Shown here: one piece after another, positions 4,837 to 62,672 of the stretch
Layout: every line of letters starts with the position of its first letter
How positions within the stretch are numbered: position 1 is the first letter of the stretch
Position numbers and translations under genes: made by a program
From: Neolewinella aurantiaca
Lineage (GTDB): Bacteria > Bacteroidota > Bacteroidia > Chitinophagales > Saprospiraceae
Reading direction: 5' to 3'
Length of the DNA stretch: 64,000 bases
Assembly (NCBI RefSeq): GCF_008014675.1
Contig: NZ_VOXD01000016.1
Location: 62,001 to 126,000 of the forward strand
Notes under the pieces: model-generated
Database searches by the model: none
Told to the model about the DNA's origin: nothing
The model's input: the letters and a program-made list of their open reading frames with translations, nothing else

Positions 4837-4856
4837 CTGCACCCGCGGCCGCGCCC
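4837..4856 (+). repeat. Dispersed 20-bp motif, copy 1
   Basis: This matches the window-wide consensus TTGCACCTGCGNNCGCGCCC (written as plus orientation) with two mismatches. It lies between two minus-strand genes, just beyond the 4911-4947 terminator. Confidence 0.6.
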
Positions 4857-4910
4857 GGAAATACCTGAGAGAGTGTACTGATGCCTTTGCTCAGTCCTTT
4901 TCCAGCACGC

Positions 4911-4947
4911 AAAAAAAAGCCCTGACCTGCACGATGCAGACCAGGGC
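4911..4947 (-). terminator. Rho-independent terminator of the barrel gene
   Basis: On the minus strand GCCCTG pairs with CAGGGC and CTGCA with TGCAG around a TCG loop, followed by eight U residues. It begins 28 bases after the stop codon of the gene at 4975-5478. Confidence 0.9.
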
Positions 4948-4974
4948 AATTTTGTGGGTTATGAGGTGTTTCGC

Positions 4975-5478
4975 TTATTTGCCACCGCTGTTCAGCACGT
5001 AGCGAACGGCAAGGTTGCCGTAGCCGCCGCCGAAGCCTCCGCTCCCGAAGCCATCGCCGAGGAAGAGGGTCGGAACCCAGTCGGCAGTGACGGAGATCGG
5101 CGCGTCAGCAAATGTGTACTGAAGGCCAAGGTAACCGGAAACGGTGAAGGTCGTTTCGCCGCCATCAAAGAATTCTGAGTTCCAGAGCTGAACACCGGCG
5201 CCGCCACCAAAGTACCACTGCAGGCCATCGACGGATTCGATGTCTTTGTGGATCTGGTACGCACCATTGATGGTGATCCAGCTGAAGCCGGAGTACCCCC
5301 GGTAGCCAACGTATGCCTCGAGGGCGCTGGATTCGGAGATGAAGGTTTTGTAGCTGGCTGCCCAGGGATAACCCAAACGAAGGCCAGCGGCGGATTTGTA
5401 ATCCTGCGCCTGCATGTCCGCAGAGGCGGCAAAACAGAGGCAGAGTGTGAGAGCAATGAGTGATAAGAGGTTTTTCAT
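4975..5478 (-). CDS. Secreted outer-membrane beta-barrel-like protein, 167 aa
   Basis: The start at 5478 (MKNLLSLIALTLCLCFAASADMQAQ) gives a clean signal peptide cut after QAQ. The frame stays open another 48 codons upstream, but that extension would hide the signal sequence. The mature part alternates aromatic and polar residues (AAGLRLGYPWAASYKTF, YVGYRGYSGFSWITINGAYQ, GYLGLQYTF) and is rich in Gly, Tyr and Trp, as in small eight-stranded outer-membrane barrels of Bacteroidota. The end is Gly-rich, closing with YGNLAVRYVLNSGGK. No substrate or partner can be named. It appears monocistronic and is closed by the strong terminator at 4911-4947. Confidence 0.8.
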   Translation of the reverse strand: MKNLLSLIALTLCLCFAASADMQAQDYKSAAGLRLGYPWAASYKTFISESSALEAYVGYRGYSGFSWITINGAYQIHKDIESVDGLQWYFGGGAGVQLWNSEFFDGGETTFTVSGYLGLQYTFADAPISVTADWVPTLFLGDGFGSGGFGGGYGNLAVRYVLNSGGK

Positions 5479-5705
5479 AGTAAAACGGGTCGGTTTAATC
5501 CGGTTCCAGGAAGTACCGGAAAGGGTGAATGTTTTAGTGAATGTGATGTTGTCTGGAGGGTTGATAGTTCTTAAGACGAAAGGAACTACTCCTTTCCATA
5601 ACCACACCACGATTTCAATCATTGATGCAGTTGGAAAAGTGAGCGTTACACCTAACAGAAGAATTTTTTCTGATCGTGTGAAACTCGCCTCCGGATCGAC
5701 ATAGC

Positions 5706-5719
5706 GTACACAAGTGTAC
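5706..5719. promoter_or_regulatory. Small perfect inverted repeat GTACACAAGTGTAC
   Basis: A 6-bp perfect inverted repeat with a 2-base spacer sits 228 bases upstream of the barrel gene and 30 bases downstream of the X-Pro peptidase stop. It could be an operator half-site pair, but no regulator is adjacent. Confidence 0.25.
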
Positions 5720-5748
5720 CCGTTATCGTTTTATAGCTACGGAGCCCC

Positions 5749-7652: not shown

Positions 7653-7672
7653 GGGCGCGCACGCAGGTGCAA
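7653..7672 (-). repeat. Dispersed 20-bp motif, copy 2 (exact match)
   Basis: All 18 fixed positions of the consensus match. It lies 66 bases upstream of the X-Pro peptidase start and is oriented with that gene. Confidence 0.75.
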
Positions 7673-8293: not shown

Positions 8294-8313
8294 CGGCATC
8301 CTGCGTTCGCGCC
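8294..8313 (+). repeat. Dispersed motif, copy 3 (variant with one extra T)
   Basis: It reads GCATCCTGCGTTCGCGCC, the form with a T inserted after GCA. It ends 13 bases before the ATG of the next gene. Confidence 0.55.
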
Positions 8314-8326
8314 TGAAAAGGACCCC

Positions 8327-11701: not shown

Positions 11702-11722
11702 GGGCGCGGACGCAGGATGCAA
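11702..11722 (-). repeat. Dispersed motif, copy 4 (extra-T variant)
   Basis: It reads TTGCATCCTGCG-TC-CGCGCCC on the minus strand. The identical 21-mer occurs again at 62652-62672, also upstream of a minus-strand gene. Confidence 0.75.
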
Positions 11723-13220: not shown

Positions 13221-16200
13221 CTAAACCCGGCTCACCGCCAGCGTAGCCGTTTCTTCACCCGGCAACTCCAGTGCATCGCCATCAACATCGCCATCAAGTA
13301 CCAGGCTATCCGCCAGTACTTCGGAGGAGATGTAGTCACGGAAAGCCGTAGCGGCTTCCTCCACCGCGGGGGAACCCTGCAGGCGAACGCGGATGCGGTC
13401 GGTCACCTCGAAGTCGAGGTCTTTGCGCATGTTCTGGATGCGGTTGACGAGTTCGCGGGCAAGGCCTTCCTTCGCCAGTTCGGGCGTAACGGTAACGTCG
13501 AGCGCAACGCTGACTTCGCCGTCGGAGGCGACCTTCCATCCGGGGATGTCTTCAGTGGCAATCATCACGTCTTCCAGCGTGATGGCAACCTCCTCGTCAT
13601 TGACGGTGAGTACAAAGGCTCCGGATTTCTCCAGCAGTGTGATGTCGTCTCCGCTCATCTGGGTGATGGCCGCAGCAACGTCTTTCATCATCTTGCCGAC
13701 CTTCTTGCCGAGGACGCGGAAGTTGGCCTTGATGCTCTTTTTTAGGAAATCGCCGTCGGTCAGGAATTCAACTTCTTTGATGTTGGTCTCAGACTTGATG
13801 ATGTCGGCTACAGCCTCTACGTGAGCCTGGAACTCAGCGTCGGTCGCCGGTACGAGGATCTTCTGTAGCGGCTGGCGCACGCGGAGATTATCGGCCTTAC
13901 GCAGCGAAAGCGTCAGCGAGCTGATGCGCTGAGCGTAAGCCATCCGCGTTTCCAGGTCTTTGTCGATCTGGCGATCGTTGGCTTCAGGCAGGATGCTGAG
14001 GTGAACGCTGTCGGCCAATGCTCCTTCACGTCCTTCCAGTGCACCTGCGTCCGCGCCTCCGCGCAACAAATCACGGTAAAGATGATCGGCGTAGAAGGGC
14101 GCTACGGGAGACATAAGGTGAGCTACCTGCAACAGGCAACCATGCAGTGTCTGGTAAGCTGCACGCTTATCCTGGCTCATTTCTCCTTTCCAGAAACGGC
14201 GGCGACACTGACGCACGTACCAGTTGGAAAGCTCGGCGTTGACGAAGTTTTCGATGGCACGGCAGGCTGGTGTTGCGTCGTAAGCTGCGTAGAGCTCAGA
14301 AACTTCCCTGGTCAGGGAGTTGAGGCGACTGATGATCCAACGGTCAATTTCGGGCAGGTCTTTGTACGCCACCGGCTGAGCCGTCAGCGGATCGTACCCG
14401 TCAATGTTGGCGTAAAGCGCAAAGAAGTTGTAGGTGTTGTGCAGCGTGCCGAAGAAGACACGACGGACTTCCTGAATGCCTTCCTCGTTGAATTTTAGAT
14501 TGTCCCACGGGTTGGCGTTGCTGATCATGTACCAGCGCGTAGCGTCGGCGCCGTACTTGTCGATGGTAACGAAGGGATCTACCGCATTGCCGAGGCGCTT
14601 CGACATTTTCTTCCCCTCTTTGTCAAGAACGAGCCCGTTGGAGACTACGTTTTTGTAAGCAACAGAGTCGAAGACCATCGTGCCGATGGCGTGAAGGGTA
14701 TAGAACCAGCCACGGGTCTGGTCGACGCCTTCGGCGATAAAGTCGGCCGGGAAGGCCGCTCCCTGCCCCCTGGCCCCCAAAGGGGGAAGGGGAGCTGTGG
14801 AGTCCTGGCTTTGGGTCAGGAAGGGCGGGCGCAAGTGGAGGCCCTGGTCCAGCATATCTTTAGTGAACGTTGGGCGGGTGTTCAGTGCATAACGAATTTG
14901 TGCTAGAACCTCATCCGGGTTCTGCAGTACTTCATCGTTAGTAAACCGGATCACTCTGAACCCTTTGCTGTTGAGGATCTTAGTCCGCTCCTGATCAAGC
15001 TCTGCGGCTTCTTTTGAATTATGGATTGCTCCATCAACTTCAATGATGAGTCGTTTCTTCAGGTGAAGAAAATCAACGATGAAGTTGCCAATGATATGTT
15101 GGCGACGAAATTTATTTTCTTCGAACTGCTTATTTGACAACAAGGTCCAGAGAGCTTCTTCTGAAGGCGTCGCTTTCTCATTGCGCATTTCCCGTGCATA
15201 CTCTTTTAACTGAGCATAGGTCATGGGGTTCGCCGTCTGATATACTGGAGGCTCCTCGTCAGTAGTGGAGGGGGTCCCGGTTCCCCCTTTGGGGGTTAGG
15301 GGGCCAGGGAAACCCCACTGCGCGTAAGGCATGGAGCCGGAGTCGAACCAAACATCGATCAGGTCGAGCTCGCGGACAAGCTTCTTGCCGTTCTGGAAAA
15401 GAACCACTTCATCGATGTAGGGACGGTGGAGGTCTTTCGGCACGCTCTGATTAAGGCCCAGCTCTTTGTTGGCCACCTGGATGGCAGCGTCGAGCTCGGC
15501 GATGGAGCCGATGCAGACTTCCTCCGAACCATCATCACTGCGCCAGATGGGCAGCGGGATGCCCCAGTAGCGAGAACGACTGAGGTTCCAGTCATTCAGG
15601 TTTTCGAGCCACTTGCCGAAGCGACCGGTGCCGGTGCTTTCGGGCTGCCAGTTGATGGTGTCGTTGAGCTCGCTCATGCGCTCCTTGACGGCGCTGGCCT
15701 TGATGAACCAGCTGTCGAGGGGGTAGTAGAGTACGGGCTTGTCGGTCCGCCAGCAGTGGGGATAGCTGTGGTTGTACTTGGCTACGTTGAAGGCGAGGCC
15801 CACTGTTTTGAGGTGGATGGCGATGTCGACGTTAACGTCTTTGTATTCGGGGTCGTCTTTGTAGTCTTTGACGTAGCGGCCGGCAAACTGGCCGGCGTCG
15901 GCGGTGAATTTACCTTGCTTGTCCACCAGGGTCAGTGAGCCGATACCGTTGGCTTTGCCAACGGCCATATCGTCCTGGCCGAAACTGGGTGCGGTATGCA
16001 CGATACCGGTACCGGCATCGGTGGTTACGAAGTTGCCGGTGATGACGCGGAAGGCGTCGCCATCGGTAGGTACGGGACCTTTAAGGAGTTGCTCGTAGCG
16101 CAGCCCGGCCAGCTTGCTGCCGGGGAAGGGCGCACTCATGGCTTCCACTACCGGTTGATTGTGGCCACCAAACCATTTCGAAACGAGTTCCTTGGCCAAA

Positions 16201-17075
16201 ACGACGTCGTTGGGAGCTCCGGTATATTGGTTCTTGGTCCGCACTTTGACGTATTCGATATCGGGGCCTACGGTGAGGGCGGTGTTACTCGGCAGGGTCC
16301 AGGGCGTCGTCGTCCAGGCGATGATGTGCACATCGCTGCTGTCCTCAGAACCCATCACTGCACCTGCGTCTGCGCCCTCTTCTGTCTGAGGCATTACTGG
16401 CAGGCTCCAGAGCCACGCAAAATCTGCGTCGCGCTGCGCTTGAAACATCGCTACAACGGTGGTGTCGCTTACATCCTGATAAGCACCGGGCATGTTCAAT
16501 TCGTGCGAACTGAGGCCCGTACCCGCTGCGGGAGAGTAGGGCTGGATAGTGTAACCTTTGTACATCAGGCCTTTGTCGTAGATCTGCTTGAGCAGCCACC
16601 AGACCGACTCCATGTACTCTTTTTCGTAAGTTACGTAAGGCTTCTCCAGGTCGACCCAGTAGCCCATTTTTACGGTGATGTCGTCCCAGATGCCTTTAAA
16701 GCGCATCACGGTTTCCTTACAGGCTTTGTTGTAGTCGTCGACGGAGATCTTCGTGCCGATGTCTTCCTTGGTGATTCCGAGTTCAGATTCCACCTTCAGT
16801 TCGATGGGCAGGCCGTGGGTGTCCCATCCACCCTTGCGTTCTACCCGTTTGCCCGTCAGGGTTTGGTAGCGGCAGAAGATATCCTTGATGGTCCGTGCCA
16901 TTACGTGGTGGATGCCCGGCTTGCCGTTGGCTGAAGGAGGGCCTTCGTAAAAGACAAAGGAGTTTTCGATGTCCCGCTCCTCAATGCTGCGCTTGAACAC
17001 ATCGTTTTTCTCCCAGAATTCCAGGATTTGCTTGTCTACTTCGGGAAGGTCTAACTGATTGTAAGTGGAAAACAT
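13221..17075 (-). CDS. ileS: Isoleucine--tRNA ligase carrying an in-frame DUF559 insertion
   Basis: This class I synthetase charges tRNA-Ile. The protein is 1,284 aa, about 183 residues longer than expected. The ATP-binding signature appears as PPSANGKPGIHHVMAR near residue 50, the HIGH variant normal for this lineage. The editing-domain region includes AWTTTPWTLPSNTAL, and the second signature is GKKMSKRLGNAVDPF. Residues about 590-772, between DSGSMPYAQWGFPG and AAFPADFIAEGVDQTRGW, are foreign (see 14761-15309). Two copies of the dispersed 20-bp motif also lie inside the gene, encoding EEGADAGAVMG and RGGADAGALEG in surface-loop positions. Expression appears to be controlled by an Ile-codon leader and attenuator at 17105-17240. 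The catalytic motifs are intact, so the enzyme is expected to work. Confidence 0.97.
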   Translation of the reverse strand: MFSTYNQLDLPEVDKQILEFWEKNDVFKRSIEERDIENSFVFYEGPPSANGKPGIHHVMARTIKDIFCRYQTLTGKRVERKGGWDTHGLPIELKVESELGITKEDIGTKISVDDYNKACKETVMRFKGIWDDITVKMGYWVDLEKPYVTYEKEYMESVWWLLKQIYDKGLMYKGYTIQPYSPAAGTGLSSHELNMPGAYQDVSDTTVVAMFQAQRDADFAWLWSLPVMPQTEEGADAGAVMGSEDSSDVHIIAWTTTPWTLPSNTALTVGPDIEYVKVRTKNQYTGAPNDVVLAKELVSKWFGGHNQPVVEAMSAPFPGSKLAGLRYEQLLKGPVPTDGDAFRVITGNFVTTDAGTGIVHTAPSFGQDDMAVGKANGIGSLTLVDKQGKFTADAGQFAGRYVKDYKDDPEYKDVNVDIAIHLKTVGLAFNVAKYNHSYPHCWRTDKPVLYYPLDSWFIKASAVKERMSELNDTINWQPESTGTGRFGKWLENLNDWNLSRSRYWGIPLPIWRSDDGSEEVCIGSIAELDAAIQVANKELGLNQSVPKDLHRPYIDEVVLFQNGKKLVRELDLIDVWFDSGSMPYAQWGFPGPLTPKGGTGTPSTTDEEPPVYQTANPMTYAQLKEYAREMRNEKATPSEEALWTLLSNKQFEENKFRRQHIIGNFIVDFLHLKKRLIIEVDGAIHNSKEAAELDQERTKILNSKGFRVIRFTNDEVLQNPDEVLAQIRYALNTRPTFTKDMLDQGLHLRPPFLTQSQDSTAPLPPLGARGQGAAFPADFIAEGVDQTRGWFYTLHAIGTMVFDSVAYKNVVSNGLVLDKEGKKMSKRLGNAVDPFVTIDKYGADATRWYMISNANPWDNLKFNEEGIQEVRRVFFGTLHNTYNFFALYANIDGYDPLTAQPVAYKDLPEIDRWIISRLNSLTREVSELYAAYDATPACRAIENFVNAELSNWYVRQCRRRFWKGEMSQDKRAAYQTLHGCLLQVAHLMSPVAPFYADHLYRDLLRGGADAGALEGREGALADSVHLSILPEANDRQIDKDLETRMAYAQRISSLTLSLRKADNLRVRQPLQKILVPATDAEFQAHVEAVADIIKSETNIKEVEFLTDGDFLKKSIKANFRVLGKKVGKMMKDVAAAITQMSGDDITLLEKSGAFVLTVNDEEVAITLEDVMIATEDIPGWKVASDGEVSVALDVTVTPELAKEGLARELVNRIQNMRKDLDFEVTDRIRVRLQGSPAVEEAATAFRDYISSEVLADSLVLDGDVDGDALELPGEETATLAVSRV
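14039..14058 (+). repeat. Dispersed motif, copy 5, inside ileS
   Basis: It has two terminal mismatches to the consensus. On the coding strand it encodes the GGADAGA part of RGGADAGALEGREG near the IleRS C-terminal anticodon-binding region. Confidence 0.65.
14761..15309 (-). mobile_element. In-frame DUF559 nuclease element inserted in ileS, 549 bp
   Basis: The ends are imperfect terminal inverted repeats: CCCTGCCCCCTGGCCCCC at the left and its relative GGGGGTTAGGGGGCCAGGG at the right, each followed inward by a CCCCCAAAGGGGG palindrome. The length is exactly 183 codons and the frame is open in step with ileS. The encoded core is a DUF559 (Vsr-like, PD-(D/E)XK) nuclease domain: MRNEKATPSEEALWTLL, FRRQHIIGNFIVDF, then LIIEVDGAIHN with Asp and Glu-x-Asp active-site candidates, then FRVIRFTNDEVL. 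Low-complexity linkers (PLTPKGGTGTPS, PLPPLGARGQG) come from the inverted repeats. No intein splice-junction residues are seen. Autonomous mobility is inference. Confidence 0.82.
16358..16377 (+). repeat. Dispersed motif, copy 6, inside ileS
   Basis: It has two mismatches to the consensus. On the coding strand it encodes EGADAGA just before the conserved AWTTTPWTLP block, in a stretch that looks expanded relative to usual IleRS sequences. Confidence 0.6.
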
Positions 17076-17240: not shown

Positions 17241-17691
17241 ACACGCGAATTACAAATGGGTTGGGGCAGCATTATGAGGAAATCAAATAGAGTACCCCGG
17301 ATGACTAAAATGCAGGATCAGGGGGTGGAAAGTCTGATCTTCCGGGCTTGCGGTTCCTGTTTGTTAAACAGTAGATAGTATGGCTTAACGTCATTTTTAA
17401 GCAAACGAAATTTCGCTGGATGGTGAAAAAAAAGTTCAAAAATGCTTGTGGCTAAATTAAATTATCATACCTTGGATCTACAGTCGGGCGGTACTATATA
17501 TCGTTGCCGTTTGATTGATTTAGTTTTCATTTGGTTTTTTGGGGTTATTGGGAGGCAACTTGTTTGCCTCTTTTTTTTTGCGCTGTACTGAAGGTTTACC
17601 CTGACCGTTTGCGTGGTACAAGTTGGGCGCGATCGCGGGTGCAGGGGGAGGTTTGAAGAGCAAAGCAGGGTGATTTGGTCGCCAGTTGCTG
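17241..17691. other. Intergenic region upstream of the ileS leader
   Basis: This region is AT-rich with several long T and A runs, including TTTTTTTTTG near 17571. It contains one degenerate motif copy (17625-17644). No coding frame is supported. Confidence 0.5.
17625..17644 (-). repeat. Dispersed motif, copy 7
   Basis: It has two mismatches, with the centre reading GCGATCGC. It lies about 50 bases upstream of the -7 box of the DUF1493-like gene. Confidence 0.6.
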
Positions 17692-21572: not shown

Positions 21573-21592
21573 GGGCGCGAACGCAGGTGCAA
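21573..21592 (-). repeat. Dispersed motif, copy 8 (exact match)
   Basis: All fixed positions match, with TT at the variable centre. It lies about 220 bases upstream of the coiled-coil gene and is oriented with it. A related fragment GCGTTTGCCCCTGCATC follows at 21606. Confidence 0.75.
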
Positions 21593-25061: not shown

Positions 25062-25081
25062 GGGCGCGGCCGCAGGTGCAG
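25062..25081 (-). repeat. Dispersed motif, copy 10
   Basis: It has one mismatch (first base). It lies in the 93-base gap between the convergent response regulator and DUF92 genes. Confidence 0.7.
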
Positions 25082-35567: not shown

Positions 35568-35587
35568 CGGCGCGGTCGCAGGTGCAA
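35568..35587 (-). repeat. Dispersed motif, copy 12
   Basis: It has one mismatch (last base). It lies upstream of the peroxiredoxin gene and is oriented with it. Confidence 0.7.
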
Positions 35588-44565: not shown

Positions 44566-47220
44566 ATGAATCGCTTCCTCACCACCCTGCTCTTTATCAG
44601 CTTTCTTTGCACCTGCGTCAGCGCCCAGGTCGGCTTCAATACGACGCTGCGCGACCAGATTGACTACAGCCCTCCGGGGATGACCCAAACGGCAAACGAC
44701 CTGAACGATGTTTGGGGTTACGTGGCGCCCGATGGGACTGAGTACGCTCTGGTGGGCCTGCGGAACCGCATCTCCATCGTCAGTCTCGCCGATCCGGATA
44801 ATATCGTGGAGGTTGCATCCGTAGCGGGGGCGACTTCCATCTGGCGAGACATCAAAACTTACGGCGACCATGCTTATGTAGTTGCGGATCAGGGGGCGGA
44901 TGGCATTCTTTCGATTGACCTCTCGAACCTTCCCGCCAGTGTAAGCTCGGTGAACTATAATACGGCCAATACGAGCGGTGCCGACCTGACCCGGGCACAC
45001 AATATTTATATCGACGAGCCGAACGGTCTGGCTTATATCGCCGGCGCTAACGTCAACAGCGGCGGAATGGTGATTTACGACGTGGCGACCACGCCGGGCG
45101 TGCCGGCCTTCGTAGCTTTTGCCCCCGCCGTGTACGCCCACGATGTGTACGTGCAAGACGACGTTATGTACGCCAGTGAAATCAACGGCGGGGAACTGAC
45201 CCTCTACGACGTCAGTAACCCGCAAAACATCACCGAAATCGGGGCTACTAACACCCCCTTCAACTTTACGCACAACGCCTGGGCCGACGCGAGCGGCAAC
45301 TATGTATTCACCACCGACGAGCGCGCGAACGCTCCGGTAGCCGCCTACGATATCAGCGACCTCAATGATATTATGCTCATCGATGAGTTCCGGCCCGCCC
45401 GCAGCCTCGGGAGCGGTATGATCCCCCACAACGTTCACGTGCAGGATGACTACCTCGTCATTAGCAGCTACACTGACGGCATCGAGGTGGTGGATGCATC
45501 GATACCCGATAACCTGGTCGAAGTGGCTTACTTCGATCACTGGACCGGCAGCGACGGGGGCTTCAACGGTAGTTGGGGTGCCTATCCTTTCCTGCCTTCC
45601 GGCCTCATACTGTCTACCGACATCAGCAACGGCCTTTTCGTAATCGAAGCCGACTACCAGCGCGCGGCGAGGCTGCGCGGAGTGGTTACCGATGCGGACA
45701 ACGGCAGTAACCTCAACGGAGTGAACATCACTATCGCCAGCGCACAAAACGTAGCGGCCGGCTCCGATGCCCTGGGGCGCTACAAGACAGGAATCGGTTC
45801 CACCGGCACCTTCACGGTCACCTATTCCCTGGCGGGATACAACAGCGAGTCGTTTGAGCTCTCTTTCGCGCCCGGTACGGAACTTATTCAGGACGTACAG
45901 CTGACGCGAAAAGTACAGGTGGCCGTTACCGGCAACGTTACGTCTACAGAAGACGGGGGCACGGTCGCAGGTGCAGAGGTGAGGATGACTGGCGAAGACG
46001 GTACAACAGAAGACGTCTCTGACGGCGCCGGACTGGTCGATTTCGGACTGCTGTTCACCGGCCAGTACGAGACTTTCGCGGGAGCCTGGGGTTTTCGCGA
46101 TGTTGGTCAGAGCGTGAGCGTTACGGGCAATGAGGCCCTCAGTTTCCAGCTGGAGCCGGGTTACCACGACGGCTTTGCCGTCGACCAGGGCTGGACGGTC
46201 AGCGGTGACGCTACCACCGGTGCCTGGGAGCGGGGTGTTCCCGTAGGCACCTCCTTCGGCGGAGTGCCAGCCAACCCTGGCGTAGACGCGGAGGGGGATG
46301 TCGGTAACCTGGCCTACGTCACCGGAAACGGTGGTGGTGGCGCGGGCAGCGACGACATTGACGGTGGCAACACCGTCCTGACCTCCCCCGTATTTGATCC
46401 GGCCGACATCAGTAACCAGGATATCCTCCTCACCTACGATTACTGGTTTTTCAACGATGGCGGCAGCACGGACCCCGACGATCAAATGACCGTTGCCATC
46501 ACCAACGGCATCGCCACGGAAGTAATCAGGACCTACGACAATTCCACGGCCGTCAGCGCCGCGTGGACGACGGACAACTTCGCCTTTAGCGACCTCGGAA
46601 TCGCCCTGACCGACAAAATGCGGATCATCTTCAACATCGGGGATACCGGCAACGGCCACCTGGTCGAGGGCGGGCTGGACAACTTTAGCCTCACGGCCCT
46701 GGCGAGGCTGCCGGTGACTTTGAGCAGTTTCACGGCTACGGCGGTCGCCAAGCAAACCGCCCGCCTCGAGTGGGTGACCGAGGAGGAGGACAATGCCAGT
46801 CACTTCGCGGTTCAGCGAAGTGCTGACGGGATCAACTTCGCGACCATCGGTGAGGTCGTTGCCGTTGGGGAGAGCTCCGTGTCCCAAACTTACTCCTTCG
46901 TGGACGCTGATGCTGCCGTTGGTGCGAATTTTTACCGCTTGGAGCAGGTGGACCGGGATGGGAGCAGCACGCTAAGTGAGGTGCGGTTGGTGAGCTTTGC
47001 GGGAAGTGAGGAGCTGGTGGTTTACCCTAATCCGGTGCAAGATCAGTTATGGATTTTGGGCGCGGACGCAGGTGCCGTGGAGGTTTATGAGAGCAGCGGA
47101 CGGTTGGTGCGGCGGTTCCCCGCCGCGGAAGGCCAGGAAACCATCAACCTTGCTGACTTAGCCCCGGGCGTTTATTTAGTATCGGTGAATGGAAAAAGTA
47201 CGCGGGTGGTCAAACGGTAG
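44566..47220 (+). CDS. Choice-of-anchor B family secreted protein with T9SS sorting domain
   Basis: The start at 44566 (MNRFLTTLLFISFLCTCVSAQ) gives a signal peptide. Residues about 25-365 form a beta-propeller-like choice-of-anchor B region (LNDVWGYVAPDGTEYALVG, SIWRDIKTYGDHAYVVAD, AHNIYIDEPNGLAYIAGA). A carboxypeptidase-regulatory-like fold follows (LRGVVTDADNGSNLNGVNITI), then a jelly-roll-like region (GFAVDQGWTVSGDATTGAWE), and the end is a type A T9SS sorting domain (VVYPNPVQDQLWIL...APGVYLVSVNGKSTRVVKR). Length 884 aa. Three copies of the dispersed 20-bp motif lie inside this one gene, at the signal peptide, mid-gene and in the sorting domain (GADAGAVEV). The ligand is unknown. Confidence 0.92.
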   Translation: MNRFLTTLLFISFLCTCVSAQVGFNTTLRDQIDYSPPGMTQTANDLNDVWGYVAPDGTEYALVGLRNRISIVSLADPDNIVEVASVAGATSIWRDIKTYGDHAYVVADQGADGILSIDLSNLPASVSSVNYNTANTSGADLTRAHNIYIDEPNGLAYIAGANVNSGGMVIYDVATTPGVPAFVAFAPAVYAHDVYVQDDVMYASEINGGELTLYDVSNPQNITEIGATNTPFNFTHNAWADASGNYVFTTDERANAPVAAYDISDLNDIMLIDEFRPARSLGSGMIPHNVHVQDDYLVISSYTDGIEVVDASIPDNLVEVAYFDHWTGSDGGFNGSWGAYPFLPSGLILSTDISNGLFVIEADYQRAARLRGVVTDADNGSNLNGVNITIASAQNVAAGSDALGRYKTGIGSTGTFTVTYSLAGYNSESFELSFAPGTELIQDVQLTRKVQVAVTGNVTSTEDGGTVAGAEVRMTGEDGTTEDVSDGAGLVDFGLLFTGQYETFAGAWGFRDVGQSVSVTGNEALSFQLEPGYHDGFAVDQGWTVSGDATTGAWERGVPVGTSFGGVPANPGVDAEGDVGNLAYVTGNGGGGAGSDDIDGGNTVLTSPVFDPADISNQDILLTYDYWFFNDGGSTDPDDQMTVAITNGIATEVIRTYDNSTAVSAAWTTDNFAFSDLGIALTDKMRIIFNIGDTGNGHLVEGGLDNFSLTALARLPVTLSSFTATAVAKQTARLEWVTEEEDNASHFAVQRSADGINFATIGEVVAVGESSVSQTYSFVDADAAVGANFYRLEQVDRDGSSTLSEVRLVSFAGSEELVVYPNPVQDQLWILGADAGAVEVYESSGRLVRRFPAAEGQETINLADLAPGVYLVSVNGKSTRVVKR
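44607..44626 (+). repeat. Dispersed motif, copy 14, in a signal-peptide coding region
   Basis: It has one mismatch. It encodes CTCVSAQ at the signal cleavage site. The identical 20-mer is at the same place in the S9 peptidase gene (57658-57677). Confidence 0.75.
45957..45976 (-). repeat. Dispersed motif, copy 15, mid-gene
   Basis: It has two mismatches. It encodes GTVAGAE in the regulatory-like domain of the T9SS protein. Confidence 0.6.
47058..47077 (-). repeat. Dispersed motif, copy 16, in the T9SS sorting domain
   Basis: It has two mismatches. It encodes GADAGA between WIL and VEVYESSG, where ordinary sorting domains have a short beta turn. Confidence 0.65.
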
Positions 47221-47235: not shown

Positions 47236-47256
47236 TTGCATCCTGCGGCCGCGCCT
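47236..47256 (+). repeat. Dispersed motif, copy 17 (extra-T variant)
   Basis: It has one mismatch at the last base. It lies 58 bases upstream of the CurA-like gene and is oriented with it. Confidence 0.7.
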
Positions 47257-48879: not shown

Positions 48880-50219
48880 AGGCCCGCCAGTGTTGTGAGC
48901 GCATCGTCGGCCCGGCTGAAGTTGAAGCCCGCGAGTGCGTCGGATAGTTTCGTGCGGATCCGCTCATTCCCCAGGTTGCCCAAACTCCCCAGGTGAGTAT
49001 GCTTCAAATCCGTCGGTGGAACAAAAGTTCCGTTTTCGATGTCGCGCCCAACCTGCATATAGGCGTCACGGAAGGGTACGCCTTCAAGCACGAGGTTATT
49101 GACGGCCTCGACGGAGTACAGGTAAGTATAGCGTGGATCGGTAGGTAGTTCCTGGGCGCGGACGCTGGTGCGGGGCAAGGCATAAAGAGCAATGTCCAGT
49201 CCGTCCTCCAGCTGGTCCAGGGCGGGGAAGATGGCTTCCTTCAGGAGTTGGAAGTCGCGGTGATAGCCCGAAGGAAGGTTGGTTGTAAGCTGGGCGATCT
49301 GGGCGGGGAGGCTCTGAAGGAGGTTGCACCGTCCGCGCAGCAGTTCGAACACGTCCGGGTTTTTCTTATGGGGCATGATGCTGGAGCCGGTGGTCAGTTC
49401 CCCGGGCAGTTGCAGGAAACCGAAGTTCTGGCTGGAGTACAGGCAGACGTCCATGGCCATTTTCCCGATCGTCTGGGCCAGCGAAGCAATGGCCATCGCC
49501 ATCAGCAGCTCCGTTTTGCCGCGCCCCATCTGCGCGGCCACTACATTGACGACCGGTGCCCGGAAGCCGAGCAGTTCCGTCGTCCGGTCCCGGTTCAGCG
49601 GGAAGCTGGAACCATAGCCCGCGGCGGAGCCCAGCGGGTTCTGGTCCGTCACTTCGTAGACGCCCTGCCACATCCGGAGGTCATCCACCAGGGCTTCGGC
49701 GTAAGCGCCGAACCACAGGCCGAAGCTCGATACCATGGCGACCTGCAGGTGGGTGTAACCGGGGATGAGTTTGTCTTTATGTTCTTCGCTCAGGTTCGTC
49801 AGCGTCCGGCTGAGTTCGGCGGTGCGTTCCACGATACCCCGGATGCGGTGGCGGAAGTAGAGCCGCAGGTCGACCAGCACCTGGTCGTTGCGGCTGCGGC
49901 CGGAGTGGATTTTTTTACCGTCGTCTCCCAGTTCCCGAGTGAGTAGCAGCTCTACCTGGCTGTGGACGTCCTCGACACCATCCTCGATCACGAAGTTTCC
50001 GGCGACGGCCTCCTGGTACAGCGCCTTCATCTTTTCTTTGCACCTGCGTGCCGCGCCCGCATCGATCAGGCCTACTTCCTCCAGCATCGTTACGTGCGCC
50101 AGCGACCCCAGAATATCGAACGGGGCCAGTTCCAGGTCCAGCTCGCGGTCGCGCCCAACGGTGAAGTCAGCAATTTTTTGATCGAGGTCGTAGTCTTTTT
50201 CCCAGAGTTTGGTCGGCAT
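48876..50219 (-). CDS. argH: Argininosuccinate lyase
   Basis: This 447-residue lyase of the fumarase/aspartase superfamily splits argininosuccinate to arginine and fumarate, the last step of arginine synthesis. Conserved parts are MPTKLWEKDYDLDQKIADFTVGRD, EDVHSQVELLLTRELGDDGKKIHSGRSRNDQVLVDLRLY, IPGYTHLQVAMVSSFG and the signature GSSIMPHKKNPDVFELLRGR with the catalytic Ser. Two copies of the dispersed motif lie inside: one encodes DAGAARRC (residues 53-60) between two helices, and the other encodes TSVRAQ near residue 350. No other arg gene is adjacent, so it is not in an arginine operon here. Confidence 0.97.
   Translation of the reverse strand: MPTKLWEKDYDLDQKIADFTVGRDRELDLELAPFDILGSLAHVTMLEEVGLIDAGAARRCKEKMKALYQEAVAGNFVIEDGVEDVHSQVELLLTRELGDDGKKIHSGRSRNDQVLVDLRLYFRHRIRGIVERTAELSRTLTNLSEEHKDKLIPGYTHLQVAMVSSFGLWFGAYAEALVDDLRMWQGVYEVTDQNPLGSAAGYGSSFPLNRDRTTELLGFRAPVVNVVAAQMGRGKTELLMAMAIASLAQTIGKMAMDVCLYSSQNFGFLQLPGELTTGSSIMPHKKNPDVFELLRGRCNLLQSLPAQIAQLTTNLPSGYHRDFQLLKEAIFPALDQLEDGLDIALYALPRTSVRAQELPTDPRYTYLYSVEAVNNLVLEGVPFRDAYMQVGRDIENGTFVPPTDLKHTHLGSLGNLGNERIRTKLSDALAGFNFSRADDALTTLAGL
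49154..49173 (-). repeat. Dispersed motif, copy 18, inside argH
   Basis: It has three mismatches. Its reading frame differs from the GADAGA copies, giving RTSVRAQ. Confidence 0.5.
50038..50058 (+). repeat. Dispersed motif, copy 19, inside argH
   Basis: It matches all fixed positions but has one extra base at the centre. It encodes DAGAARRC. Confidence 0.65.
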
Positions 50220-54908: not shown

Positions 54909-54928
54909 TTGCACCTGCGGCCGCGCCC
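54909..54928 (+). repeat. Dispersed motif, copy 20 (exact match)
   Basis: All fixed positions match, with GC at the centre. It fills most of the 53-base gap between two co-oriented minus-strand genes and is reversed relative to both. Confidence 0.78.
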
Positions 54929-54934
54929 TTCGTA

Positions 54935-57718
54935 TTACTCCCGGAGCATTTTACCCCGCTGGATCGGAGGAACTCCATCCGCCATCCACGACGGCATCGG
55001 TTTTTTCATCAGGTAATGGTCGAAGAACTGAGCCATCCGGGTTTGGAAGTCGAAGCGGTTGGCGGTTTTGACCGGCCAGTGCGGCTCGCCCCGATAGTTG
55101 AGCATCCATGCGGGTTTGCCGAGGCGGCGCAGAGCGGTGAACCACTCGATGCCTTGTTCCCACGGTACCGCTCCGTCATTGTCGTTGTGGAGGATCAGCA
55201 GGGGGGTGTTGATCTTGTCGGTAGTGAAGATCGGGCTGTTTTCGTAGTAGCGCTGGAAGTGACTCCATGGCGTGCCGCCGATGCGGCTCTGGGTGTGCTC
55301 ATACTGAAACTGCCGGCTGCGACCCGAGCCCCAGCGGATGCCGCCGTAGGCAGAGAACATATTGACTACCGGCGCGCCGGCCTCGATGGCGGCGAACAGA
55401 TCGGTCTTCGTTGCCAGGTACGCAGCCTGGTAACCTCCCCAGCTGTGCCCCTGCATCCCGATGCGCTTTTTGTCGATAAAGCCTTCACTAAGCAAGCTCA
55501 GTACACCACTCATCACGCAATCGTAAGCGCTTTCGCCGGGGTAGCCAACACGATATATCACGTCCGGATTGAAGATCACGTAGCCCTTGCTGGCGTAGTG
55601 GCTGTAGTTGATACTGCTGCGTCCGGGCACCGGGGTGCGGTGGCGGTAGAGCCCCTCGCTGCTGCGCTCGTAGTAGTTGACGAGCAGGGCGTGTTCCATG
55701 CTTGGGTCAAACCCTTCGGGTTTGATCAGTATACCGCTCAGGCTGCGACCCTGAGGGTCGACCCAGTTGTATCGTTCAGCGGTGCCCCAGTAGAAATCTG
55801 CCTGCTGCGGGTTGGCGGTGGATAGCTGGGTGCCTTTGTCTTTCAGGTCGCTGGTGAGCCAGAGGTCGGGGAACTGCCGGAAGTCCGCTTCGCTGTAAAC
55901 AAAGACATCCTTGTTGCGCGCTTTCATAAAGTCGCCGTAAGTTTTCGGGCCGTTACGGAGACTTGTGAAAGTGCCCGTTTGCAGATCGAGGAGGCCGTAG
56001 CCACCTTCGTAGGAGAGCTGGTTGAACGTACCGGCCAGTTGTACTTCAGCGGGGTCGATGAAACGGTTTTCCGGCTCAAGGTCTATCAGGGAATAACGGA
56101 TGTTTTGTTCGCGGCCTTTCGTTAGCCTTTTCGCGGGTGTTTTGCCGGTGGGGTCGAGCTGCCAGAGGTCGTAGCGGTCGGCTACGAAAAATTTGTTGCC
56201 GCCCGTAAGCGTGCCTTCATAGCCGTAGCTGCGTGGGTGCATCGGCCGGTCGTTGATCTCGTCGTAGAAGGTGCCGGTTTCGTTGGTGGTCAGTACGTGG
56301 TGCCGGGCGGTAGCGGGGTCGAAGCTGTTCCAGGTTGTATCCGTCGGGTTGTACCAAATGAGGAAGTCGCCACCGTCTAGCCAGCGTGCGGGGGTGATTT
56401 CGCCATCGAGCATTGAGGTGCGTTTACCCGTTCGGAGGTCGATAATGGTGGTGTTGCGGGCACCGGGGCCGCCTTCCCACATGGTTTGTTTGGAGTAGGG
56501 GCGGTCGTCGTAAACCATCACGTAGTGGCCGGCACGGTCGTTGGCCTGGTAATCGTAGGGCAGATCGGGGGTGCCAAGCTGCAGGAAGTCACCCTTTTGG
56601 GTGCGATAAGCAGCAAGGTAGGTGCGTTTCTCTTCACGGCTGAGGCGGAGGTTTTCTTCGGTGTACATCCGGGCATCTTCGGTGGTCCAGATTTCTACAT
56701 CGGCGATTTCTTCGTCGAGCAGGGTAGTGTCGCGATCGGGGCGGCGGGGTGTGGTGCCGAAGAAGAGGTATTCTCCGGATTCGCTGAAGCTCAGGTCGCG
56801 GTCGTCGGAGATGCGGTAGCTCTTGTCCAGCCACGCTTCGGGGTCGTCGGAGATGCGTTCTGCGGTTTTATCGTCGTCAGCCCAGTGATACAGAAAGAAA
56901 GGCTTCTGCTTGTCTTTGGCTTCTTTTTTAGAGGAGAGGAAGGCAACCTGTGTACCGTCATTACTGAGACTGATGTTGGTGTAGTCGCCTTCGTTTTTGC
57001 TTAGAGCGTCCCACACGAGTTCATCGGGGGATAGCCGGAGGATACCCGCTTCCCAGCTACTATCCTTTGCGGTTTGGTGAGCAACGATCACTGGTGCGTC
57101 GCGGGCAAACTCGTATGCTTTGACTCCTTCGAGATAAAAGCTGTCCTGATTGAAAAAGTCCCGGACGACAAGACGGTGAGCGTCCTTTTCTATGCCCTTC
57201 TGGAGGCTGTCAGGAAGTGCAGAAGCAGTAGTGTAGGCGTAGCGCCCACTCCAGCGTTCGCCGGTTTTGAAGCTGTAGACATTCGGGATGAGTAACGGCT
57301 CCGTATCTTCCAGGTTCCAGACCAGCAGGGTGTCCATGGCTTTTAGTTTGTCTTTCGCTTTCTTTTTTTCCGAAAGTTTGATGGCCTTTACGGCCTCCAT
57401 TCCTGGTTTCAGCAGGCCGATGAGGTGCTTTCCGTCGTAACTGAGCCTGGCGCGGTGCAGGCGCTCAAAGCGACGTTCGGTCTTTGCCCGGGCATCATAA
57501 ACTACCGCAGTTGGGTCGCCAAGGTCTTTTTCGAGGGTGTAAAGAACATGAGTGCCATCGGCGCTGATCTGTTCACTGCGAATTTGGTTCCACTGCTGCA
57601 TGTCTTTTACCGTGATGGGCCTTTTCTGCCCTCCGGGAGATCGCTGCGCATGGAACTGGGCGCTGACGCAGGTGCAAAGAAGAAACAAAATGAGCAGGGT
57701 GGGGAGGGTACGTTGCAT
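54935..57718 (-). CDS. S9 family peptidase (prolyl oligopeptidase type), exported
   Basis: This 927-residue serine peptidase has a signal peptide (TLPTLLILFLLCTCVSAQ), a beta-propeller of about 600 residues with repeats such as WNLEDTEPLLIPNV and ISLSNDGTQVAFLSSKKEA, and a C-terminal alpha/beta hydrolase domain. The nucleophile is Ser759 in GMQGHSWGGYQAAYL. The acid is in LILHNDNDGAVPW and the His in RGEPHWPVKTANR. It should cleave short peptides in the periplasm, complementing the X-Pro and M16 peptidases in this window. No C-terminal T9SS domain is seen. A motif copy overlaps the signal-peptide codons. Confidence 0.93.
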   Translation of the reverse strand: MQRTLPTLLILFLLCTCVSAQFHAQRSPGGQKRPITVKDMQQWNQIRSEQISADGTHVLYTLEKDLGDPTAVVYDARAKTERRFERLHRARLSYDGKHLIGLLKPGMEAVKAIKLSEKKKAKDKLKAMDTLLVWNLEDTEPLLIPNVYSFKTGERWSGRYAYTTASALPDSLQKGIEKDAHRLVVRDFFNQDSFYLEGVKAYEFARDAPVIVAHQTAKDSSWEAGILRLSPDELVWDALSKNEGDYTNISLSNDGTQVAFLSSKKEAKDKQKPFFLYHWADDDKTAERISDDPEAWLDKSYRISDDRDLSFSESGEYLFFGTTPRRPDRDTTLLDEEIADVEIWTTEDARMYTEENLRLSREEKRTYLAAYRTQKGDFLQLGTPDLPYDYQANDRAGHYVMVYDDRPYSKQTMWEGGPGARNTTIIDLRTGKRTSMLDGEITPARWLDGGDFLIWYNPTDTTWNSFDPATARHHVLTTNETGTFYDEINDRPMHPRSYGYEGTLTGGNKFFVADRYDLWQLDPTGKTPAKRLTKGREQNIRYSLIDLEPENRFIDPAEVQLAGTFNQLSYEGGYGLLDLQTGTFTSLRNGPKTYGDFMKARNKDVFVYSEADFRQFPDLWLTSDLKDKGTQLSTANPQQADFYWGTAERYNWVDPQGRSLSGILIKPEGFDPSMEHALLVNYYERSSEGLYRHRTPVPGRSSINYSHYASKGYVIFNPDVIYRVGYPGESAYDCVMSGVLSLLSEGFIDKKRIGMQGHSWGGYQAAYLATKTDLFAAIEAGAPVVNMFSAYGGIRWGSGRSRQFQYEHTQSRIGGTPWSHFQRYYENSPIFTTDKINTPLLILHNDNDGAVPWEQGIEWFTALRRLGKPAWMLNYRGEPHWPVKTANRFDFQTRMAQFFDHYLMKKPMPSWMADGVPPIQRGKMLRE
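57658..57677 (-). repeat. Dispersed motif, copy 21, in the S9 peptidase signal peptide
   Basis: It is identical to the copy at 44607-44626, including the single mismatch, and also encodes CTCVSAQ. Confidence 0.75.
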
Positions 57719-59948: not shown

Positions 59949-60136
59949 TTCTTCCTTTTATCCGTTGTCGCAGGAATTTTACGCTAGATGTCATTAGCGG
60001 TAAATCCGCCACGTCGGTAACCTGACGACTTTAACCCGGACGGAAGAAATCAGGACTTCAATCCTGTGTAAACACCCGCTGTGATCAGGTGTCCTACGAG
60101 CCACTGCACGTTAAATCTGCACCGAATAAGCAAAAT

Positions 60137-61156
60137 ATGCCTACAATTTCCGACAAAGCCTGGAGCCACCAGGCCAAACAATTTACGCTCACCAACGCCC
60201 GGGGAAATACCGTAAAGCTTACGGATTATGGCGCTACTGTAACCTCCATTGTTATCGATGGCAAAGAAATGGTTTTGGGCTTCGATGACATACAGGGCTA
60301 CCTCGGCGAACAACCCTACTTCGGAGCCACCATAGGGCGGTACGGAAACCGGATCGCTAAAGGGCAATTCACACTGGATGGAGAAACCTTTCAACTTCCC
60401 GTCAATAATGGCCCTAATTGTTTGCATGGAGGAATAGTTGCTTTCGATAAAAAAATCTGGAAAAGTGAGTTCTCCACCAACGACAACGAAGCTTCAGTTG
60501 CTTTTTCGTTAGAGAGCGAAGACGGGGACGAGGGCTTTCCCGGCAAACTGAGTACCGAAGTCGTTTTCGTCTGGACGAACAACAATGAACTGAAAATCCA
60601 ATACCAGGCGGTTACGACGAAACCTACCGTCGTTAACCTCACCAATCACTCCTATTTCAACATTAGTGATGCCCCTACGATAGAAGGGCTGGAACTGGAA
60701 CTGAAAGCAGCGCAGTACGTCCCGGTCGACGACGCGTCTATTCCCCTCGGACACCTCGAACCGGTAACGGGTTCACCGTTCGATTTTACCACCGCGAAGC
60801 CGGTGGGCCAGGACCTCCGGGCCAATCATCCGCAAATAGAGATCGCCAACGGCTACGACCATACCTGGGTGATCGACGGACATTCGGGAGAACTCCGGGA
60901 GTTCGCGCTGCTAACCGATCCGGTAAGCGGACGTAAACTGCGCGCTTTTACGACCGAACCAGGGGTTCAGGTTTTTACCGCAAACTTCGCTGAAGGGCAG
61001 TTCAAAGAAAGAAACGGCAGGCCGGTCCTGCCCTACGGTGCCATTTGCATGGAGACGCAGCATTTCCCCGACTCTCCCAACCAGCCAAACTTTCCTTCAA
61101 CGGTGCTGCGGCCGGGCGAGGTATACTCCAGTGCTACTGTCTACCGCTTTGAATAG
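60137..61156 (+). CDS. galM: Aldose 1-epimerase (galactose mutarotase)
   Basis: This 339-residue enzyme interconverts the anomers of galactose and other aldoses. Family blocks are LTNARGNTVKLTDYGATVTSIVI, YFGATIGRYGNRIAKGQFTLDGE, NGPNCLHGGIVAFDKKIW, VVNLTNHSYFNI (catalytic His), GYDHTWVID and the catalytic Glu in YGAICMETQHFPDSPNQPNFPS. The start at 60137 (MPTISDKAWSHQ) has no signal peptide. An open frame upstream lacks family similarity. The next gene begins inside its last codons. Confidence 0.96.
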   Translation: MPTISDKAWSHQAKQFTLTNARGNTVKLTDYGATVTSIVIDGKEMVLGFDDIQGYLGEQPYFGATIGRYGNRIAKGQFTLDGETFQLPVNNGPNCLHGGIVAFDKKIWKSEFSTNDNEASVAFSLESEDGDEGFPGKLSTEVVFVWTNNNELKIQYQAVTTKPTVVNLTNHSYFNISDAPTIEGLELELKAAQYVPVDDASIPLGHLEPVTGSPFDFTTAKPVGQDLRANHPQIEIANGYDHTWVIDGHSGELREFALLTDPVSGRKLRAFTTEPGVQVFTANFAEGQFKERNGRPVLPYGAICMETQHFPDSPNQPNFPSTVLRPGEVYSSATVYRFE

Positions 61157-61832
61157 TTGGTGTTCGGTCATAATCCCGACACTGAACGAGGAGCGACACC
61201 TGCCCGATACGCTACGTCGTTTGCCGCTCGAGGAGGTTGAGGTGGTGATTTCCGACGGGGGGAGTTCCGATAATACGCGGCAGATCGCCCGCTCCTTCGG
61301 AGCGATTGTGGTTGTCTCCCCACCGGGGAGAGCCCGGCAACTTAATACCGGTGCAAGAGCAGCTTCCGGGCAATGGTTCTACTTTTTGCACGCAGATACA
61401 ACGCCACCCCAAAACCTTTCACTGCACCTGCGCGCCGCCGCCCAAATCGGTTTGCCTGCCCGTTTTGCGGTTCGTTTTGATCGTGAAGATGAAAACAGGT
61501 GGCTGGCTTTGTTCGGGCGTATGAGCAAGTATGATGTCAGCGTCTTTCGCTTCGGAGACCAATCCCTTTTTTTGAGCCGTGAGCAGTTTCAATCGAGTGG
61601 AGGTTACCGGGAAGACCATGAGTTGATGGAAGGACATGAACTGGCGCGACGAATCGAAAAATCCGCAGGAGGATTTCGGGTAATGAACGGGGCCGTAACG
61701 ACCTCTTCCCGGCGCTATCTCAGGTACGGAGTGGTGTTCACACAGTTGGTTTTTGTCCTGATCGTGGCACTCTATTACAGCGGTATTCCCCAGCGCAGGC
61801 TGGTGGAGATCTATAAGTGGGCGTTTTCATAG
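61149..61832 (+). CDS. Family 2 glycosyltransferase, TIGR04283-like
   Basis: The N-terminus CSVIIPTLNEERHLPDTLRRL and the DGGSSDNTRQIA block are GT2 signatures. GRARQLNTGARAASGQWFYFLHADTTPP carries the metal-binding DxD-like ADT and matches the TIGR04283 group (selenodomain/arsenosugar-associated transferases). The end contains one hydrophobic helix (YGVVFTQLVFVLIVALYYSGI). No ATG is in reach; TTG at 61149 overlaps the galM stop by 8 bases, so translation is probably coupled. Length 227 aa. A degenerate motif-like segment (61422-61443) encodes HLRAAAQ. The acceptor is unknown. Confidence 0.88.
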   Translation: MNSWCSVIIPTLNEERHLPDTLRRLPLEEVEVVISDGGSSDNTRQIARSFGAIVVVSPPGRARQLNTGARAASGQWFYFLHADTTPPQNLSLHLRAAAQIGLPARFAVRFDREDENRWLALFGRMSKYDVSVFRFGDQSLFLSREQFQSSGGYREDHELMEGHELARRIEKSAGGFRVMNGAVTTSSRRYLRYGVVFTQLVFVLIVALYYSGIPQRRLVEIYKWAFS

Positions 61833-61837
61833 CAAGC

Positions 61838-62572
61838 TTATACAACGTAGCTTGGTGTTGACCGAAACGAGCCATCTTCCATCCACTCGAGCATCAGATA
61901 AGCGGGGGGGAGCATCTCCTGCTGAAAAGCGGTGTTGTCGGGATTAATAAAGAAACTGGTTGGCGGGCAAAGATGAACCTCCAGGTTTTTCCACCTCACG
62001 GTACGCCCGGAGTGGAAATGGCCGCAAAAAACCTTGCGTGGCCGACGATCAGTGGTTAAAAGCTTAATCAGGTCATTAGTTTGCTTTAGTGGGTAGGTGT
62101 TGTCCATAAAGGTTACTCCCATCGGAACCGGAGGGTGGTGAAGAACTACACTGGCGTCGGGAGAGTTCTGAAGGGCGCGGCCAAGCCATTCGATCTGATT
62201 ACTATCGACTTTTCCCATAGATGAATCCAGGAAAAGGAAATCCTGGTCTTTGACCCGAACCAGCCCCCGGATCGGGTCCTGATTATGGCCTCCGAGGAAA
62301 AAAGCGTTGCGCAGCATCACCCGATCATCGTGGTTGCCGGGAGTAAGGTAATAGGGAACGCCCAGGGGGTCCAGCCGGGCTCGAAGCATATGAAATATTT
62401 CCTGTTTGGGCTCAGCCGCGCAGAAGTCACCAGTAAGGAAAATCGCGTCAGGTTCGCGCTTCATTAGGTGCGCAAGCACCTTGTCTAACCGGGCGTTGAC
62501 ATCCAGCCCCATCAGCAGTTCGCCGATAGGTAGCAGGTGCAGGTCCGTGATTTGAGCTATTTTTACGTGCAC
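61838..62572 (-). CDS. Metallophosphoesterase, CpdA/Icc-like, 244 aa
   Basis: The calcineurin-like fold is complete: KIAQITDLHLLP (first metal ligands Asp, His), AIFLTGDFCAAEP (Asp), LTPGNHDDRVML (Asn-His), VVLHHPPVPMG (His) and VFCGHFHSGR (His-x-His). CpdA-type members hydrolyse 3',5'-cAMP; other phosphodiesters are possible. No ATG is present: GTG at 62572 (MHVKIAQITD) or TTG at 62578 must serve. A TACCTTTA promoter-like box at 62594-62601 fits either. Motif copy 22 lies 80 bases upstream. Confidence 0.9.
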   Translation of the reverse strand: MHVKIAQITDLHLLPIGELLMGLDVNARLDKVLAHLMKREPDAIFLTGDFCAAEPKQEIFHMLRARLDPLGVPYYLTPGNHDDRVMLRNAFFLGGHNQDPIRGLVRVKDQDFLFLDSSMGKVDSNQIEWLGRALQNSPDASVVLHHPPVPMGVTFMDNTYPLKQTNDLIKLLTTDRRPRKVFCGHFHSGRTVRWKNLEVHLCPPTSFFINPDNTAFQQEMLPPAYLMLEWMEDGSFRSTPSYVV

Positions 62573-62651
62573 GATCAAGGGGGTATCGAACGCTAAAGGT
62601 AGGGGTTAAGAAACTTAATCCAAACCACTTGCAATCAGATAAATTGTTTTT

Positions 62652-62672
62652 GGGCGCGGACGCAGGATGCAA
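62652..62672 (-). repeat. Dispersed motif, copy 22 (extra-T variant)
   Basis: It is identical to the copy at 11702-11722 over all 21 bases. It lies between the divergent phosphoesterase and HMG-CoA reductase genes, oriented with the former. Confidence 0.78.

Follow-up and report, generated by a model that had tools for sequence, protein, structure and literature searches.

A dispersed asymmetric motif of Neolewinella and Lewinella, depleted of close same-orientation pairs and compatible with DNA self-recognition

What could maintain a short sequence that recurs about 23 times, in both orientations, within 64,000 nucleotides of a bacterial genome? The stretch in question, called the window at its full length, comes from the 6.0-Mb genome of Neolewinella aurantiaca (contig NZ_VOXD01000016.1, positions 62,001 to 126,000); this genome is G000 here, and other G-numbers denote further genomes compared. 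The motif, searched as TTGCACCTGCGNNCGCGCCC with up to three mismatches unless stated otherwise, is abundant throughout G000, restricted to the genus Neolewinella/Lewinella and split into dialects, turns over without element-sized gaps, is evenly spaced in G000 and avoids close same-orientation pairs. A self-recognition tag of the DNA-uptake kind fits these observations best and, judged from sequence, is rather probable. The first-pass annotation of the window had named DNA uptake among several candidate functions, none of them established for this group. Dialects, turnover by substitution, even spacing, the lack of strand bias and the tolerance of the coding sites make it the best supported of those candidates, and searches of an open-access library likewise gave no report of this motif among the papers listed.

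An abundant motif in the window and its genome

The pattern matched 17 times in the window, against a mean of 0.12 and a maximum of 2 in 100 dinucleotide shuffles, in line with the near-zero chance expectation first proposed for 64 kb. About six more are variants in which a T is inserted or the spacer is longer, which brings the total close to the roughly 25 dispersed copies originally described. All three copies reported as exact are exact, the extra-T variant noted at 11702 and 62652 was recovered at both places as well as at 47236 and, in weaker form, at 8294, and copies lie within ileS, argH and the genes for the type IX secretion system (T9SS) protein and the S9 peptidase, as annotated. 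The copies are as follows (pattern search, except where variant search is given).

4837..4856, + strand, motif copy with 2 mismatches
7653..7672, - strand, exact motif copy
8294..8314, + strand, weak inserted-T variant (GGCATCCTGCG...), variant search
11702..11722, - strand, inserted-T variant (TTGCATCCTGCG...), variant search
14039..14058, + strand, motif copy with 2 mismatches, antisense within ileS
16358..16377, + strand, motif copy with 2 mismatches, antisense within ileS
17625..17644, - strand, motif copy with 2 mismatches
21573..21592, - strand, exact motif copy
23652..23671, + strand, motif copy with 2 mismatches, within a histidine-kinase-like gene
25062..25081, - strand, motif copy with 1 mismatch
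29088..29107, + strand, motif copy with 2 mismatches
35568..35587, - strand, motif copy with 1 mismatch
37969..37988, + strand, motif copy with 3 mismatches
44607..44626, + strand, motif copy with 1 mismatch, coding for FLCTCVSAQ, with which the signal peptide of the T9SS protein ends
45957..45976, - strand, motif copy with 2 mismatches, antisense in the T9SS protein gene
47058..47077, - strand, motif copy with 2 mismatches, antisense in the T9SS protein gene
47236..47256, + strand, inserted-T variant, variant search
49154..49173, - strand, motif copy with 3 mismatches, sense in argH, at a site common to several species
50038..50058, + strand, variant with a 3-base spacer, variant search
54909..54928, + strand, exact motif copy
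57658..57677, - strand, motif copy with 1 mismatch in the S9 peptidase signal peptide, present in several other species too
61422..61443, + strand, longer-spaced variant CTGCACCTGCGCGCCGCC..., variant search
62652..62672, - strand, inserted-T variant, its 20-mer identical to that at 11703, variant search

Across G000 we counted 1,572 copies (787 forward and 785 reverse; one per 3.8 kb), whereas the reversed pattern, our background for whole genomes, gave 5 (2 + 3). With a count so far above this control, the copies are neither at background level nor peculiar to the window. A 464-kb sample of G000 held 135 copies at zero to three mismatches against one match of the reversed control, the two becoming alike from five mismatches on. 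The logo drawn from this sample has an asymmetric core of 17 bases, GCACCTGCGNNCGCGCC, with weaker conserved positions upstream (-2, -9 to -6 and -15 to -13) and downstream (+22 to +24). Since these extend to about -15 and +24, the element exceeds the 20 bp originally assigned to it; beyond the motif and these flanking positions the copies have no sequence in common. The palindrome GCGNNCGC, earlier described as a core between non-palindromic flanks, is indeed present, but it is incidental and the motif as a whole is asymmetric. We infer that the motif is a protein-binding site, as yet a predicted one, rather than a repeat unit.

Restriction to one genus and division into dialects

The genome survey covered 60 genomes: G000, 20 other members of the genus Neolewinella/Lewinella and 39 genomes outside it. 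Counts ranged from 9 to 1,747 in the 20 congeners and from 0 to 17 in the 39 others, the latter about equal to the reversed controls; the motif is thus confined to the genus. The FtsH protein of the window shares 87% identity with FtsH of Neolewinella persica; an FtsH scan of named genomes returned outgroups and no evident genus member, and the FtsH tree gave no resolved position for G011. Seven genomes of other genera in the family (G021, G022, G023, G025, G033, G034 and G035) yielded no dispersed motif of this kind in 40-80 kb each, a sample in which rarer motifs may be missed, and the candidate repeats found there proved local or tandem only.

Species poor in the main motif carry another. 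G011 has an unrelated motif, TGCTACTTTGNTAGYC, which was discovered de novo as a 10-mer occurring 44 times in 160 kb (0.6 expected) and which numbers 1,102 copies at up to two mismatches (reversed control, 55), compared with 2-29 in 35 other genomes. The form ACCTGCGCTCCGCCGCC occurs 691 times in G001 and 398 times in G007, and its counts of 4-241 in other genus members are partly due to its likeness to their own motif. An A replaces the C of the main dialect at 22 of 32 sites in 100 kb of G014; G019, the sister of G014 in the FtsH tree, retains C at 18 of 29 sites. CCCGCC stands in place of CGCGCC in G012 (12 of 26 sites, against 3) and in G004 (5 of 17). Dialects are mixed in G009, G013, G016, G017 and G020, and the calls for these five and for G015 are tentative, being drawn from few sites each. 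At the site in argH that several species have in common, G014 bears the motif in its own dialect.

Spacing, orientation and phage copies

Even spacing sets G000 apart from simulations in which the intergenic preference was matched: the coefficient of variation (CV) of the distances is 0.71, whereas the 3,000 simulations gave 1.04 +/- 0.09 and never a value as low, and no gap exceeds 12 kb where 4.3 such gaps were expected. In G011 spacing is even within each strand. Strands are balanced not only in total, as given above, but also in 50-kb bins of G000, and the 4.17-Mb contig of G014, which carries 85 of the 97 G014 sites, has no strand skew (permutation p 0.52; origin not located).

Close neighbours seldom share an orientation. 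The nearest same-strand copies in G000 are 1,069 bp apart; below 800 bp there are no same-orientation pairs against 14.8 expected, whereas opposite pairs number 18 against 15.4, and at 800-2,500 bp same-orientation pairs number 10 against 32. When five sets are combined (G000, other d1 genomes, G014, G011 and the CCCGCC group), 2 same-orientation pairs lie below 800 bp where 29.7 were expected, and 22 at 800-2,500 bp where 63.4 were expected; beyond 4 kb their number approaches expectation. The unrelated motif of G011 follows suit, with 0 pairs against 5.7 below 800 bp, a closest same-strand gap of 979 bp and 0 pairs against 7.0 at 1,500-2,500 bp. As controls, 600 7-mers about as frequent as the motif were examined in the same DNA; every one of them has close same-orientation pairs, and the largest minimum gap is 395 bp. 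Same-orientation pairs were again scarce in a fresh sample of 100 kb each from G005 and G011, obtained after the first pair analysis: 1 where 5.0 were expected below 800 bp, and 2 where 10.9 were expected up to 2,500 bp. Opposite pairs in the two ranges numbered 11 against 5.4 and 7 against 11.8. The lone close same-orientation pair of this sample (133 bp) is from G011 and belongs to a set with 9 matches to the reversed control. An excess of (-,+) over (+,-) pairs below 400 bp (20 against 5) did not recur in the fresh sample (5 against 6 below 800 bp), and for that reason we do not rely on it.

The exclusion thus spans about 1-2.5 kb and exempts opposite orientations. Because it affects same-orientation pairs only, the motif, and whatever reads it, probably acts in one direction, with a probable reach of one to a few kilobases.

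Copies are also present in phage DNA. IMG/VR contains 20 stretches from 19 viral contigs with an exact copy (L284-L303), one of which is clearly a phage with a tape-measure protein. Apart from the copy by which each was selected, the stretches carry about 0.11 copies per kb, compared with 0.29 per kb in the host. In several of the contigs the additional copies occupy similar positions, which suggests that the contigs belong to a related group of phages of Neolewinella/Lewinella hosts.

These results bear on two alternatives. One is a polar self-tag acting inside the cell in the manner of Chi: an enzyme working from a DNA end would meet the motif in one orientation and then spare or repair the DNA, and dialects would track the enzyme. 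Same-orientation exclusion points towards one-way action, and the copies in phages suit this view too, since any DNA that gains from the tag should carry it. Chi, the FtsK-orienting polar sequences (KOPS) and the highly iterated palindrome HIP1 resemble our motif as abundant, dispersed, lineage-specific oligonucleotides. They are, however, only 5-8 bases long, HIP1 is palindromic, and Chi and KOPS are skewed with replication, whereas the Neolewinella motif is far longer, asymmetric and strand-balanced in the bins and on the G014 contig. We therefore consider a Chi-like tag unlikely.

The other alternative, which answers to the chromosome-organisation option listed at the outset, is a set of regularly spaced sites at which a nucleoid protein of the architectural or segregation type would bind. 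Even spacing on both strands speaks for it, and dialects could track a drifting protein. The 4.17-Mb contig of G014 has neither regional nor strand pattern, on which ground a strand- or region-dependent segregation signal was rejected. Phage contigs bear the motif, and an exclusion that concerns same but not opposite orientations is hard to account for by such a protein, which makes this role improbable.

Placement relative to genes

Gene calls cover about 82% of the 464-kb sample, with approximate gene starts. Of its 135 copies, 77 fall outside them, in the roughly 18% left uncovered, which upholds the intergenic enrichment first described, although 77 must be read as a maximum, some genes having been given a start codon too far downstream; the copy at 57658, for example, lies inside an open reading frame (54935-57718) and reads as a signal peptide. 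The remaining 58 copies are in genes, 26 sense and 32 antisense. Ten of the sense copies stand at the 5' ends of genes, and nine of these read CTC within signal-peptide-like stretches such as FFCTCVRAQ; further in-gene copies code for linkers, for example APAAAP, GADAGA and ARTQVQ.

Could the motif then be a regulatory RNA or DNA element, whether part of a promoter, a terminator or a signal-peptide element? The nine CTC-bearing 5' copies would suit it, as would the orientation of copies between co-directional genes, 28 of 45 of which point along the genes. Against it, more than half of the in-gene copies are antisense, convergent intergenic regions are the poorest in copies (0.53 per kb against 0.93 and 1.09) and Rfam, at its gathering threshold, returned nothing in the window (nor did ARAGORN). 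We regard a regulatory role as very improbable, and the terminator version in particular is ruled against by the poverty of convergent regions, where terminators sit.

Turnover by substitution

Orthologous sites were aligned across species in 266 pairs with the motif present in the first member, mostly in coding DNA; intergenic DNA is not alignable at these distances. The partner has the motif too in 131 pairs and a weak form in 27; it lacks the motif without a core gap in 31 and has small core gaps in 76. In only one is the element missing as a block (at least 15 of 20 bases). Among gap-free losses, a site with 2 mismatches in G003 shows 8 in G008 and G000, and a site found in G000, G003 and G008 has 9 mismatches in G006 and 11 in G015. 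With 31 gap-free absences and 76 small core gaps against a single block, copies in alignable, mostly coding DNA turn over by substitution and small indels, without insertion of a unit. A small mobile or proliferating repeat, such as a repetitive extragenic palindromic (REP) element, a miniature inverted-repeat transposable element (MITE) or a Rickettsia palindromic element, as also suggested at first, would explain many copies within one genus but is disfavoured in this alignable DNA by block absence in just one pair and by the lack of anything common to the copies beyond the motif and its weak flanks, and is scarcely credible.

Comparison with known uptake systems

Uptake sequences have to date been described from Neisseriaceae and Pasteurellaceae alone (PMC12616744). 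The DNA uptake sequences (DUS) of Neisseriaceae, read by ComP, resemble our motif in being asymmetric, in numbering about a thousand copies or more, spread over both strands, and in forming dialects, eight of which are described in Neisseriaceae (PMC3630211). They differ in having 10-12 bases and a type IV minor pilin as reader, whereas the Neolewinella core has 17 bases, is sparser and occurs in a genus in which no PF07963 was found. The uptake signal sequences (USS) of Pasteurellaceae combine a short core with weaker flanks, are evenly spaced, prefer non-coding DNA, lack orientation bias and grow by point mutation under uptake bias (PMC1939737, PMC7811141). Our motif agrees with both systems in its high copy number, of hundreds to thousands divided between the strands with no bias of orientation, its dialects among related species, its even spacing in G000, its gain and loss by point mutation and its preference for non-coding and tolerant coding DNA; the USS itself has a 9-base core, AT-rich flanks and a density of about one per kb in H. 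influenzae (PMC7811141). USS accumulate slowly in resident phages (PMC6776037), so the viral contigs with copies also support the uptake reading.

How would such a tag work? A sequence-specific DNA receptor would read the motif during natural DNA uptake, as the DUS and USS are read in Neisseria and Haemophilus, binding the long asymmetric core and making weaker contacts on either side. DNA bearing the motif would be favoured for import and recombination, so that matches arising by point mutation would spread and lost ones would be restored, filling intergenic DNA, signal peptides and linkers. As the taste of the receptor drifted, the genome would follow, giving rise to dialects. With a reader that is probably one-directional over a few kilobases, as the orientation-specific exclusion implies, each stretch of DNA would need one copy facing each way.

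In Bacteroidota, transformation of Riemerella requires ComEC, DprA, ComF, RecA, an HHH protein, a DUF1343 protein, a barrel and a DUF5689 surface protein, and the essential set as reported includes no pilus gene (PMC8459023). R. columbina favours its own DNA, with no motif established for it (PMC7965970). The phylum and the pilus-free set are points of likeness to our case; the lack of an established uptake motif in Riemerella is a difference, and so is the distribution of the barrel and DUF5689 given below. ComEC is present in all 21 genus genomes. We infer that the motif is read by an uptake receptor, which would act in one direction on DNA as it enters and would use no type IV pilus. In the most specific version, Bacteroidota would recognise self-DNA through a putative envelope receptor that reads about 17 bp and flanks one way and then imports, or else processes, a few kilobases lying to one side of them; whole genomes would have followed the drift of its preference, which in one species would have jumped to an unrelated motif. 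This version we advance tentatively, as somewhat likelier to fail than to hold.

Several observations weigh against the uptake reading. The type IV pilin signature PF07963 was found in none of the 21 genus genomes, as against 8 of 14 control genomes (secretin, ATPases and other pilus genes were not searched), so by this signature the minor-pilin machinery of the DUS and USS systems was not found. ComEC does not discriminate, as it is common (33 of 36 genomes overall). The Riemerella-type pair of barrel and DUF5689 protein occurs in one of the 21 genus genomes, G011; DUF5689 was found in none of the other 20, nor was the barrel at E 1e-20, whereas 30 of the 39 genomes outside the genus have DUF5689. 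Same-orientation exclusion is known here from Neolewinella/Lewinella alone, and loss of nearby direct repeats through recombination or instability could contribute to it. G011 has no same-orientation deficit at 800-1,500 bp (5 pairs against 5.0), and its overall spacing is not even (CV 0.92 against 0.93, from 20 sites in one 80-kb stretch). The 464-kb sample has 16 exact copies of the 20-mer, 38 with one mismatch, 52 with two and 29 with three, so that two-mismatch copies exceed exact ones, unlike in H. influenzae; the 10-mer of G011 has 44 exact and 14 one-mismatch copies. Finally, the motif is more conserved than its flanks at 9 of 13 independent gap-free sites (0.83 against 0.74, p 0.057), which is suggestive only; this per-site test corrects a stronger pooled contrast (0.90 against 0.77, 70 pairs) dominated by argH (30 of the 70 pairs). 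We do not file the motif as a DUS or USS, because the pilin feature (assessed by PF07963 only) was not found and the uptake role is a predicted one.

If the uptake reading holds, Neolewinella/Lewinella would be a third group with an uptake motif, outside the phylum of the other two and, it seems, lacking type IV pilins, which would mean that motif-based self-recognition arose repeatedly and with a different machine. Joint change of motif and receptor would become testable inside one genus with several dialects, the exclusion zone would record in the genome which way the machine works and how far, and the recurrent CTC-bearing signal peptides would be explained as by-products of the motif. Same-orientation exclusion offers a readout of machine direction and reach from sequence alone, one that might apply to Haemophilus and Neisseria too.

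Neighbouring genes and other repeats

In G011 a TonB-receptor-like barrel adjoins the DUF5689 protein (L305:5673-10601, also L306 and L307), as in the Riemerella transformation operon; the two genes adjoin in G021 and G022 as well. Comparing the genes at this pair with 20 kb around ComEC in G000, G011, G014 and G001 indicated no replacement receptor. Large secreted proteins with a carboxypeptidase-regulatory-like domain adjoin ComEC in G000 (L308:12212-16192) and G011 (L309:1671-8429); they are 33% alike and have no relative in the 20-kb stretches of G014 and G001.

Other repeated sequences came to light in the same genomes. About 126 copies of ACTTGAATTGATCCTTCGGGAATTGAAAG in G019 (L199-L202, G019:C2:100001-180000) and L138 are probably a CRISPR array. 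The words GGAGTCGGGAGT (24 copies) and TAGTGGGTAGTG (11 copies) in G000 (L111-L130 and the window) are probably local repeats, and G021, of a sister genus, has a local cluster of palindromic repeats around TTCGCGGGCCACAGGCCCGCG (L214:10815-17620). In the window, IleS (1,284 aa; 13221-17075, minus strand) carries an insertion between its halves, in which residues 622-734 give a DUF559-like match (E 2e-19, below the curated cut-off).

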